Shown here piece by piece: positions 8,038-22,500 of a DNA stretch of 64,000 bases (the stretch's first letter is position 1; the number at the start of each line of letters is the position of its first letter). The DNA is from Chrysomallon squamiferum (taxonomy: Eukaryota > Mollusca > Gastropoda > Neomphalida > Peltospiridae). A program made the translations under genes and the position numbers. The notes below the pieces were generated by a model, which ran no database searches, had not been told where the DNA came from, and saw nothing but the letters and a program-made list of their open reading frames with translations. The DNA is taken from NCBI GenBank assembly GCA_012295275.1, contig CM022675.1, forward strand, positions 612,860 through 676,859. Reading direction: 5' to 3'.

Positions 8038-10772
8038 GTAATGGCTGATAACTGTGTTTTTATATTTAATTTTATATAAAAGAGACAGAAGACAGAGATG
8101 ATTCTATACATAAAAGAGACAGAAGACAGAGATGATTCTATACATAAAAGAGACAGAAGACAGAGATGAATCTATACATAAAAGAAACAGAAGACAGAGA
8201 TGAATCTATACATAAAAGAGACAGAAGACAGAGATGATTCTATACATAAAAGAAACAGAAGACAGAGATGAATCTATACATAAAAGAGACAGAAGACAGA
8301 GATGATTCTATACATAAAAGAAACAGAAGACAGAGATGATTCTATACATAAAAGAGACAGAAGACAGAGATGATTCTATACATAAAAGAGACAGAAGACA
8401 GAGATGATTCTATACATAAAAGAAACAGAAGACAGAGATGATTCTATACATAAAAGAGACAGAAGACAGAGATGATTCTATACATAAGAGACAGAAGACA
8501 GAGATGATTCTATACATAAAAGAAACAGAAGACAGAGATGATTCTATACATAAAAGAGACAGAAGACAGAGATGAATCTATACATAAAAGAGACAGAAGA
8601 CAGAGATGAATCTATACATAAAAGAAACAGAAGACAGAGATGATTCTATACATAAAAGAGACAGAAGACAGAGATGAATCTATACATAAGAGACAGAAGA
8701 CAGAGATGATTCTATACATAAAAGAGACAGAAGACAGAGATGATTCTATACATAAAAGAAACAGAAGACAGAGATGATTCTATACATAAAAGAGACAGAA
8801 GACAGAGATGATTCTATACATAAAAGAAACAGAAGACAGAGATGATTCTATACATAAGAGACAGAAGACAGAGATGATTCTATACATAAAAGAGACAGAA
8901 GACAGAGATGATTCTATACATAAAAGAGACAGAAGACAGAGATGATTCTATACATAAAAGAGACAGAAGACAGAGATGATTCTATACATAAAAGAGACAT
9001 GAACACAGAGATGATTCTATACATAAGAGACAGAAGACAGAGATGAATCTATACATAAAAGAGACAGAAGACAGAGATGATTCTATACATAAAAGAGACA
9101 GAAGACAGAGATGATTCTATACATAAAGAGACATGAACACAGAGATGATTCTATACATAAGAGACAGAAGACAGAGATGAATCTATACATAAAAGAGACA
9201 GAAGACAGAGATGATTCTATACATAAAAGAGACAGAAGACAGAGATGATTCTATACATAAAAGAGACAGAAGACAGAGATGATTCTATATATAAAAGAGA
9301 CATGCACACAGAGATGATTCTATACATAAAAGAGACATGCACACAGAGATGATTCTCAGACTGGTAACAGATCCGAGACAGAACCTTTTTATACTTTTTC
9401 CGTGGCGACTTTTTGAAAGGTTTCTTCGGTTTTTTGATGGTTTCGCGGTTCTCTGGTTTCAGCACGCGGTAGATTCGAACCAGCCAGTGTTCTGTGGTGT
9501 AAGCCTCTTCCAAGTGTTCCAGCTCAAATTCCTTGTTTCCTATTTCCACTCCTCGAGTTCTGTCGAATCCTGAAGGAGTCCGGAAATCCAGCTGAAATTG
9601 TGTGTGTTTGTATGTTACTCACGATCTAGTTAAATTGTTAGTTTAAAAATAGGTGTGTGTGTGTGTTTGTATGTTACTGCCGGTTTAGTTAAATTGTAAG
9701 TTTAAAAATAGGTGTGTGTATGTGTGTGTGTTTGTATGTTACTGCCGGTTTAGTTAAATTAATAAAATATACTGATTATGAAGATTAGCATGTGCACTTC
9801 AGAATTATATGCTAATTATAATTATTTAAAATAACAACAGCTGTAGGAGAAGTAGTAATTGTAGTAGTTGTTGTAGTGATAGCAGCAGCAGTTGTAGTGA
9901 TAGTGATAATAGTAGCAGTAGTAAAAGTAGCAGATGTATAACGGTGGTGGTAGTAGTAGTTGTTGTAGTTGTAGCTGTATTATCAGCAGTACTAATAGTT
10001 CTAGTATTAGTATTAGTATCAGCACTAGTAGTAACAGTAGTAGTGGTAGTTGTAGTAATAGTAGTAGTGGTAGTTGTAGTAACAGTAGTAGTGGTAGTTG
10101 TAGTAACAGTAGTAGTAGCAGCAACTGGTAACCAATGAACTGCTTGTTTTGCCTGCATGTTAAAATTAAACATATGATTTTTACCTGCAAGTTTAATCAA
10201 AGTACATATTTACCTGTAAAAATGAATAATAAAAGTAAATTTTTACCTGTAACTGTCCAAAGCGGAAGTAAGACAGTTTGTACATCAGACAGTTAAGTAG
10301 AGTTCTAGACCCACCCGCATCCACCCTGAACTCCCCCTGTGGTGTGAAATAGTCACTCTCCTGAAAAAAAAAAAAAACATTTGATATTTTATATTAACAT
10401 TTACTCAAAGAAAACATAAAACGTAAAATACAAAATATTTTATTTTAAGCTGGTAATAATTTTTAATTTGTAGTAAATAAAAATCTATCTGTATTAAATT
10501 AAACAGAAGAAAATCTATTAAATTTAACAAAAAATAATAAAAAAATATATTTAAATGAGAAGTAATAAACTAATAAAAACATGAAATATAATTATTCTGA
10601 TTTTTCATTTTAAACTTATATTTTAAATATTAACTGACAAAAATATAAAAAATAAATATATATATATATATATAGTTTTTAAATATCAAAACTAATGAAC
10701 ACATAAAATATAAAAACAAATCCTGATTTTTCATTTTCAGCATTTAATCATCTTTAATTTGTTATTTATATA

Positions 10773-10803
<31 letters not shown>

Positions 10804-11124
10804 TATGTTTTAACAAAGAAAATATGAAGATTAAATAGAAGACAAAAAGATATCTCTGAATTAATTATTATTATTAAAAATAAAAAAAAAAAAAAAAAAA
10901 AAATACTAACTCGAATGTCTTTGGGATGTTCCCCTTCAGCGATTCTGACCATCCACAAAAACTTGTTGATGTCGTCTCCGGAGTAGCCGATGACACCACC
11001 AAAAATAACGAGGACGTAGTCGACATCCAGCGACTGCATTATCTCATACGCTGCACTCTCGTTTGACGACATCGCCTTGCCAACCTGAACACGACAAACA
11101 CAACTTAGACATAGCTAAATACAG

Positions 11125-19487: not shown

Positions 19488-19562
<75 letters not shown>

Positions 19563-22500
19563 TACATGGAAACTACAAAGTTGCATACAGTGATACACAC
19601 ACTAACATAAAAACTCATTGTAACACATACAAATAATTCACAAACAATTTTCTCACATTCTTTCACCTATCTGCCCACAAACACATGCATACTCACCCAT
19701 AAGAAATAAGTAAACATGAGTGCAAAAATAGCAATTCCTTCATTATCATAACTGCCTGCTACTGAACGACTAATGTAACCAGGTACTAAAAAAAAAAAAT
19801 AAAAAATAAAAATAATAAAAACAAGAAGAAGAAGAATAAGAAGAAAAAAAAGAAGAAGAAGAAAAAGAGGAGGTGAAAAGCAACCAACAATAACAACACT
19901 AAAATAATAAATATTTCTAAAAATCAACAAAGCCTAAATATTCTCTGTAGTAATAATTACATCATGTATTCAGTTACCCTACTCCCCAGCCAAAACAAAA
20001 CAAAAAAATATCTAATAGTTTTAATGACAAGTTTTTTTATTTTTTTTTTTTTATTGATGTAAAAACATTATTAGGAATAAATCTGTTAATAACACAAGTA
20101 ACATTAATTAAAATTATTATCAATTAATAATGAAATTTATAATACTATAAGGACTAAGAGGAAATATATTAATAAAATATCAGATTAAATAAATATGTTA
20201 ATAACAGAATTAATAAGTTAATACATTTTTATTACTGAAGAAAAATAATAATAAACTTATTAAGAATAACTATATTAATAAAATGTAATCTTAAATGAAT
20301 CTACTAATAAAGGAATACACATTTTTTAATTATTAAAGTAAGAAGGATGAAATTAAAAAATAATAAAGATATAAATTTTACCTATGGCAATAAAACAAGC
20401 TGCAAACAGGCCAGCACCAGGAGTCCAGATTTCCTTTGTAAAAAAATACACTGCTAGCGCTGTTAGACCACTGAAATAAATAAATAAATAAATAAATAAA
20501 TAAACAAACAAACAAATAAACACAGATTTCCTTTGTAAAAAAATACACTGCTAGTGCTGTTAGACCACTGAAATAAATAAATAAATAAATAAATAAATTA
20601 ATAAATAAATAAATAAACACAGATTTCCTTTGTAAAAAAATACACTGCTAGCGCTGTTAGACCACTAAAATACAAATAAATAAATAAATAAATTAATTAA
20701 TAAATAAATAAACAAATAAACAAACACAGATTTCCTTTGTAAAAAAATACACTGCTAGCGCTGTTAGACCACTGAAATATATAAATAAATAAATAAATAA
20801 ATAAATAAACAAACACAGATTTCCTTTGTAAAAAAATACACTGCTAGCGCTGTTAGACCACTGAAATAAATAAATAAATAAATAATAAATAAATAAATAA
20901 ACACAGATTTCCTTTGTAAAAAAATACACTGCTAGCGCTGTTAGACCACTGAAATACAAATAAACAAATAAATAAATAAACAAATAAATAAACACAGATT
21001 TCCTTTGTAAAAAAATACACTGCTAGCGCTGTTAGACCACTGAAATAAATAAATAAATAAATAAACAAACAAATAAAAAAAATAAAGCTGTTAGACCACT
21101 GAAATAAATAAATAAATAAATAAACAAACACAGATTTCCTTTGTAAAAAAATACACTGCTAGCGCTGTTAGACCACTGAAATACAAATAAATAAATAAAT
21201 AAATAAACAAATAAATAAATAAATAAATAAACAATCACAGATTTCCTTTGTAAAAAAATACACTGCTAGTGCTGTTAGACCACTGAAATAAATAAATAAA
21301 TAAACAAATAAATAAATAAATAAATAAACAAACACAGATTTCCTTTGTAAAAAAATACACTGCTAGTGCTGTTAGACCAATGAAATAAATAAATAAACAA
21401 ATAAACAAACAAACACAGATTTCCTTTGTAAAAAAATACACTGCTAGCGCTGTTAGACCACTGAAATAAATAAACAAATAAATAAACAAATAAAAAAACA
21501 AATAAATAAAAAAACAAATAAACAAACACAGATTTCCTTTGTAAAAAAATGCACTGCTAGCGCTGTTAGACCATTGAAATATAAATAAATAAATAAATAA
21601 ACACAGATTTCCTTTGTTAAAAAAATACACTGCCAGTGCTGTTAGACCATTGAAATATAAATAAATAAATAAATAAATAAATAATCAAAATTTCTGTCTC
21701 GCATAATTTGGTGTGAGAGAGAGAGACTTACTAATTAATAGAAAACAAAAGGAAAGTTTGTGCTTTGAAATGAAATTGAATATTCATCAGTTGTAATTAC
21801 ATAATTAAACTGATTTTTTCTTTCTAATATACAGCTTAATCATCATTTATTGTTTATTCAACCATTTAATAAAAATAGCCAAAAATTATTATAAATAAAA
21901 ACATTAATGTGTTCAAACTAAAATACAAATTTCAAAATACATTATTTAAAAAAGGAGAATTAAATTTGTAAAATATACCTTAACACTGTTTTCAAAATAA
22001 AATTAAAATGTTAAAATACATTATTTAAGAAAGGAGAATTAAATTTGTAAAATATACCTACACACTGTTTTCAAAATAAAATAAAAATGCCAAAATACGT
22101 TATTTAATTTAAAAAGTAAGTATTAAATTTGTACAATATACCGTATCGTTAAATGATTAATGTTTTCAAAATAAAATAAAAACATTATTTTAAAAAAGGG
22201 GGGGTAATTAAATTAGCAAAATGTACCTAAAAATTGGAGCAAGAAACACACATATATCACGGATGTGTACGGGTATGTTGAGCTGGTTGAGCACCCAGTG
22301 AATGGAGCCTGACGTGACCATCAGTCCCGGGTACACCTGAATAAACAGAAACAAGAGTGAATAACTGAATAACTCAAAATGAATAACTGAATAACTCAAA
22401 ATGAATCACTGAATAATTACACATAATTACACTGACATGGAAATAAGCAACACATCACTGAATGGACAGACAAACAAACGAAATAAATGAATGAACATTT

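Follow-up and report, generated by a model that had tools for sequence, protein, structure and literature searches.

Why should one splice junction after another of a single snail gene lie inside local tandem repeats? The question is raised by the STT3B gene in a 64,000-nucleotide stretch of the genome of Chrysomallon squamiferum (GenBank assembly GCA_012295275.1, contig CM022675.1, positions 612,860 to 676,859 of the forward strand), the whole of which is here termed the window and numbered from its first base. The answer favoured in the following (probability about 0.6) is that these arrays are minisatellites of the type named mirages in amphioxus, i.e., tolerated, near-neutral duplications, with splicing fixed on the exon-proximal copy.

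Arrays across the splice junctions of STT3B

STT3B is encoded on the minus strand of the window by 17 exons (exons 1–16 assembled by hand), giving the 32 coding splice junctions that had originally been predicted. The joined coding sequence (CDS) comprises 775 codons including the stop, and its sole stop codon is the last one. Among the best 120 of 6454 protein matches to a query without exon 17, the closest near-full-length match is 89 % identical over 99 %, and the named matches beside it are STT3B proteins of gastropods (Pomacea, Biomphalaria and others). The same query aligns to chain A (STT3B) of PDB entry 6s7t across residues 14–747.

The gene was scanned for local ungapped duplications (shift 9–1500 bp, low-complexity segments removed), and a junction was regarded as crossed at an ungapped score of at least 16 with at least 5 bp on each side; in first-order Markov sequence, 0.1 % of positions are crossed in this way. 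Eight of the 32 junctions are crossed (Table 1), five of them 5' sites (exons 6, 7, 10, 13 and 15) and three 3' sites (exons 4, 9 and 10), with exon 15 (score 17, 6 exonic bp) and exon 9 (score 21, 8 exonic bp) representing weak cases. Nine junctions had been proposed by the original prediction, which had been made from the sequence letters and a list of open reading frames. The ninth, the 5' site of exon 3, remained below threshold: its array stops ~45 bp short, and no junction copy reaches 21/30 identity, so that only a more degenerate copy could reach the site. Tandem Repeats Finder (TRF) alone, applied to an earlier 16-exon model, yielded 6 crossed junctions out of 30.

At all eight junctions the units span the exon–intron boundary and carry exonic bases together with the splice signal, as had been proposed. 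The copies include 6–8 exonic bp at five of these junctions and more at the 5' site of exon 10, at exon 13 and at exon 4 (13, 21 and 45 bp, respectively). The sparing of exon interiors was likewise borne out, since only 1.3 % of their positions are crossed versus 21.4 % of intron positions (20-bp margins excluded). Along the window, arrays are dense at 8–22.4 kb and almost absent at 26–34 kb, a region that makes up most of intron 1.

Errors of assembly or reads, the artefact that would have undone the original prediction, are a most improbable source of the arrays. The assembly is partly based on Oxford Nanopore reads according to the available text of its description (PMC7142155), and long arrays are error-prone. 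Against such an artefact speak the differences between copies (mean identity 96.1 % over 292 copy pairs at window 7.6–22.4 kb, with 14 % of the pairs identical and 13/186 among pairs of 40 bp or more) and the intact reading frame, as well as the individual unit found at each junction and the like anatomy on other chromosomes. All matches to the exon 4 unit (exact 25-base pattern, 7/7) and to the exon 13 unit (94 bases, best candidate only, 12/12) in the 404.6-Mb assembly fall at the STT3B locus. As far as searched, i.e., for these two of the eight STT3B units, the units thus appear to have been born locally.

Decoy splice sites and their tolerance

Besides the authentic site, the arrays at the nine junctions originally named contain 46 copies of splice sites, here termed decoys (Table 1; one at exon 15, none at exon 3). 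The correct dinucleotide is present in 39 of them, a single one of which (exon 15) is in frame and open. In eight other arrays of this genome, 32 of 43 decoys are intact, none of the 32 being in frame and open. Taken together, only 1 of 71 intact decoys keeps the frame open, while use of the other 70 would cause a frameshift or introduce a stop; this shows a consequence rather than selection, since in AT-rich DNA almost any decoy meets a stop, and to that extent the result takes weight from the favoured reading. Judged by sequence, the decoys would have to be ignored or else give defective messages.

Do the decoys bear traces of selection? For 40 decoys at seven STT3B junctions, chosen on the other 28 bases of a 30-base core, mismatches were counted in the dinucleotides (7/80) and elsewhere in the cores (116/1120; Fisher p = 0.85). 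Decoy dinucleotides hence decay like their surroundings, without sign of preservation or purging, which fits the tolerance of extra splice sites that had been offered as one explanation. A function of the arrays in splicing, with recognition of the adjacent exon being tuned or buffered by decoys or by repeats of intronic motifs, is very unlikely on the same grounds and in view of the frame-breaking consequence of decoy use. Such a function would be in line with the many decoys scoring within 1 of the authentic site (15/16 at exon 13 and 6/13 at exon 4, using a small position matrix trained on STT3B) and with the C. elegans minisatellite CeRep25B, described as over-represented near alternative splicing regions in the available text of PMC4039745.

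According to the favoured explanation, short tandem duplications (units of ~17–97 bp) would arise from ordinary slippage or unequal exchange in the array-prone stretch at window 8–22.4 kb, and some founding units would by chance straddle an exon edge. Since a straddling duplication would keep the original junction whole at the exon-proximal end, it should be tolerated just like a duplication far inside the intron and would escape removal by selection. The array could then expand into the intron, every unit carrying some exon and a decoy splice site. Tolerance of such edge copies, as opposed to the protein change caused by copies within an exon, would explain why exons are spared, why arrays grow only towards the intron and why the units contain exon fragments. 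Splice sites would be chosen across the exon (exon definition), and by this choice the spliceosome would disregard the decoys in favour of the first among the 5' sites and the last among the 3' sites. The conserved protein appears to demand use of the exon-proximal copy, in agreement with exon definition; the duplication mechanism and the disregard of decoys by the spliceosome are parts that we infer.

Preference for junctions in STT3B and other genes

Whether STT3B junctions are hit more often than by chance depends on the null: an excess is present per array and absent per position, and the p-values for this gene are post hoc, since it was picked because of its appearance. With random placement in the same introns, 6 STT3B ends are crossed by at least 5 bp by TRF arrays of period at least 10 versus 1.25 expected (p = 0.0005), and microsatellites show no excess in this placement test (0 crossing versus 0.76 expected). 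Per position (threshold 34), a nearby copy exists for 10/32 junction cores, 35/128 internal intron windows and 0/122 mismatched controls in STT3B, and for 3/76, 24/304 and 0/300, respectively, in the first eight other stretches described below; junctions are thus hit like an intron position, or less. A simple comparison of coverage (introns 20–22 % covered by TRF arrays versus 6/30 junctions) seemed to erase the effect and was dropped. This null is too lenient, since the reach of an array into an exon is limited to less than one unit, and therefore placement tests and founder-unit tests (one founder unit per array) were used. The claim that chance placement would not favour junctions so strongly accordingly stands per array (6 straddling versus 0.6 expected under the founder-unit null, p = 0.0001) and falls per position.

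Other genes of this genome were sampled with 65 introns, all of which enter the counts, from 13 gene stretches (130 junctions). The first group (41 introns) stems from seven stretches on a 200-kb piece of C1 and from STT3A on C14: 65 introns were predicted in eight chains; with a further prediction, 38 were kept or redrawn, and three of STT3A were added. The second group consists of 24 introns in five myosins, chosen via Pfam PF00063 rows before their DNA was read. Selection was by eye; in the first group, uncertain exons were discarded, as were introns in which exons were missing, and the myosin introns were also picked by eye, from predicted chains. The gene finder had been trained on STT3B itself, so that its agreement with STT3B is circular. 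An earlier control on the 200-kb C1 stretch (0/96 predicted exon ends crossed) included false exons of ab initio chains and was replaced.

Crossed junctions amount to 6/130 in this sample, i.e., 0/82 in the first group and 6/48 in the myosins. The C13 myosin accounts for three 5' sites and one 3' site, the latter with 43 exonic bp copied (350–8790 of the examined stretch), and the C2 myosin for one 5' site; TRF detects 4 of these 5 clear cases. The remaining crossing, in a muscle-type myosin on C15, was rejected as a mirage and kept in the count. It reflects a duplicated exon (minus strand, 1828–1919 and 2400–2491 of the examined stretch), probably a mutually exclusive alternative exon. The difference between STT3B (8/32) and the genes elsewhere (6/130) is considerable (p = 0.0013) and suggests locus hot spots. 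Junction arrays hence recur in this genome, very unevenly, and a general preference for junctions is not established.

STT3A contains one further array, and a FUT8-like gene two, that stop no more than 4 bp from a 3' site and include 0–4 exonic bases; these three were not counted as crossing and, by eye, appear to repeat the splice signal. The STT3A array is a 56-bp minisatellite, ~650 bp long, whose end coincides exactly with the 3' splice site; its units contain a TCTGTCTGCAG-like acceptor and no exonic bases. AG is kept in all nine STT3A copies and in the one decoy (1/1) of one FUT8-like array; in the other FUT8-like array it is present in 0/7 at the aligned place, its CACAG being two bases off.

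Several of the statistics weigh against blind duplication and in favour of a mutational process seeded at or near splice junctions, e.g., by R-loops, by intermediates of co-transcriptional splicing or by stalled replication where GC-richer exon gives way to AT-rich intron. Next to the founder-unit excess in STT3B given above, the five myosins contain 4 straddling complex arrays versus 0.95 expected in the founder-unit test (p = 0.009) and versus 0.90 upon placement inside introns (p = 0.009), the latter being 4 versus 1.71 (p = 0.08) with all arrays of period at least 10. In the pooled 13 stretches, 12 complex arrays lie within 30 bp of junctions versus 6.1 expected (p = 0.005), or 17 versus 10.4 if all arrays of period at least 10 are considered (p = 0.009), whereas microsatellites show no excess there (7 versus 7.5 expected). 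A presence of arrays near junctions twofold over expectation is not predicted by blind duplication. The 8.7-kb intron 1, almost free of arrays, also agrees with seeding at junctions.

Such a process is nevertheless rather unlikely, since further counts argue against it. The first eight stretches yield 0 straddling complex arrays versus 1.28 expected in the founder-unit test (1.69 with all arrays of period at least 10), and the pooled excess is not significant, with 4 versus 2.24 for complex arrays (p = 0.17) and 4 versus 2.65 for all arrays of period at least 10 (p = 0.26). Pooled placement inside introns gives 4 crossing versus 1.99 (p = 0.12). For the myosins alone, the number of arrays within 30 bp is 5 versus 2.8 (p = 0.11). 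Moreover, junctions are not over-hit per position, and the unevenness among genes points to locus hot spots. The check with a tandem repeat finder called for by the original prediction, performed on the 13 other stretches, therefore yields an excess in the myosins and none of significance in the pool, and the mutational process beginning at junctions that it proposed, in keeping with the myosins and the 30-bp excess, is not established. Doubtful to a slightly higher degree is the wider proposal that a transcription- or splicing-linked DNA process repeatedly seeds exon-edge duplications in this snail lineage, as in lancelets, with the spliceosome always taking the exon-proximal site of natural multi-decoy introns.

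Related systems and coordinates

No named system of this kind was known to the original prediction, yet one exists. Tandem repeats over intron–exon boundaries are named mirages in amphioxus, where they are described for Adh3 and the globins BflGb6 and BflGb9, TnC being named as a further case and repeats over splice sites of PGBD5 being likened to them (PMC3087553, PMC3902484). The available text of these two articles reports AG/GT signals in many repeats and regular splicing as undisturbed; length and somatic instability are reported features of the amphioxus mirages. STT3B resembles them in its minisatellite-like duplications across an exon–intron edge, 5' or 3', at 8/32 junctions (6/130 elsewhere in the genome, one a duplicated exon), and in splice signals occurring in many, not all, units (39/46 decoys in STT3B, 32/43 in the eight other arrays). 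It differs by its gastropod host and by the concentration of 8 crossed junctions in one gene and 4 in another, known here from one genome assembly. The term mirage is used here for an anatomy and not for a lineage.

Intron gain reportedly may proceed via tandem duplication of AGGT-containing segments (Rogers model). The STT3B arrays share with this model the tandem duplication that copies splice signals; they differ from it in lying at existing introns, apparently with no new intron being formed. None of the arrays has become coding, since the CDS aligns with STT3B of PDB 6s7t without insertion at these junctions. Mutually exclusive exons likewise involve a local copy with splice sites, as in the likely case of the C15 myosin, yet there a whole open-frame exon is copied, whereas the STT3B arrays copy only an exon edge. 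Conotoxin introns contain simple repeats only, according to the available text of PMC3862624, and earthworm metallothionein genes are described with minisatellites in intron 1 and no junction arrays in that of PMC12783039.

In a literature search mainly at the level of titles and abstracts, boundary-spanning arrays were met only in amphioxus and no report from a mollusc was found; within this scope, splice-site arrays are extended from amphioxus to a mollusc. The arrays represent ready-made experiments, with 16 near-identical 5' sites after exon 13 and 10 intact copies of the 3' site before exon 4, and would allow choice of splice sites by exon (exon-proximal copy) to be told from choice that favours the intron-proximal copy and with it the shortest intron. 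They also illustrate one way in which splice sites become more numerous while no new exon or intron has yet arisen. If junction-linked seeding were true, some genes would become studded with splice-site arrays.

Table 1. Exons of STT3B and associated tandem arrays (positions in the window)
Feature	Position	Strand	Basis
Exon 1 (from ATG)	33928..34103	-	hand-built model, joined CDS
Exon 2	25145..25253	-	hand-built model, joined CDS
Exon 3	22227..22336	-	hand-built model, joined CDS
79-bp array, ends ~45 bp short of exon 3 5' site	21903..22182	-	
~97-bp array over exon 4 3' site; up to 45 exonic bp; 13 decoys, 10 with AG	20426..21682	-	
Exon 4; 3' site in array	20382..20470	-	hand-built model and duplication scan
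Exon 5	19697..19785	-	hand-built model, joined CDS
Exon 6; 5' site in array	19058..19123	-	hand-built model and duplication scan
33-bp duplication over exon 6 5' site; 7 exonic bp; 1 decoy, with GT	18996..19064	-	
Exon 7; 5' site in array	18132..18231	-	hand-built model and duplication scan
17/33-bp array over exon 7 5' site; 6 exonic bp; 7 decoys, 4 with GT	17851..18137	-	
Exon 8	17419..17517	-	hand-built model, joined CDS
31-bp weak duplication over exon 9 3' site; 8 exonic bp; 1 decoy, with AG	16833..16893	-	
Exon 9; 3' site in weak array	16694..16840	-	hand-built model and duplication scan
27/54-bp array over exon 10 3' site; 8 exonic bp; 5 decoys, 4 with AG	15500..15802	-	
Exon 10; both sites in arrays	15304..15507	-	hand-built model and duplication scan
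Duplications over exon 10 5' site; 13 exonic bp; 2 decoys, 2 with GT	15072..15316	-	
Exon 11	14325..14527	-	hand-built model, joined CDS
Exon 12	13178..13365	-	hand-built model, joined CDS
Exon 13; 5' site in array	12589..12760	-	hand-built model and duplication scan
47/56-bp array over exon 13 5' site; up to 21 exonic bp; 16 decoys, 16 with GT	11747..12609	-	
Exon 14	10911..11084	-	hand-built model, joined CDS
Exon 15; 5' site in weak repeat	10247..10360	-	hand-built model and duplication scan
33-bp weak repeat over exon 15 5' site; 6 exonic bp; decoy is the sole in-frame open one	10194..10252	-	
59-bp array, 8 bp upstream of exon 16 3' site, not crossing	9599..9760	-	
Exon 16	9385..9591	-	
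34-bp x 38 array (95% matches) in intron 16; 29 bp from exon 16 5' site, not crossing	8069..9356	-	
Exon 17 (stop codon)	7629..7706	-	end reckoned from 26 codons including stop

The window lies at 0.61–0.68 Mb of the 17.5-Mb chromosome C11, a position at which a subtelomeric explanation of the arrays is conceivable, and the 10 kb to its left consist entirely of N (10000/10000).

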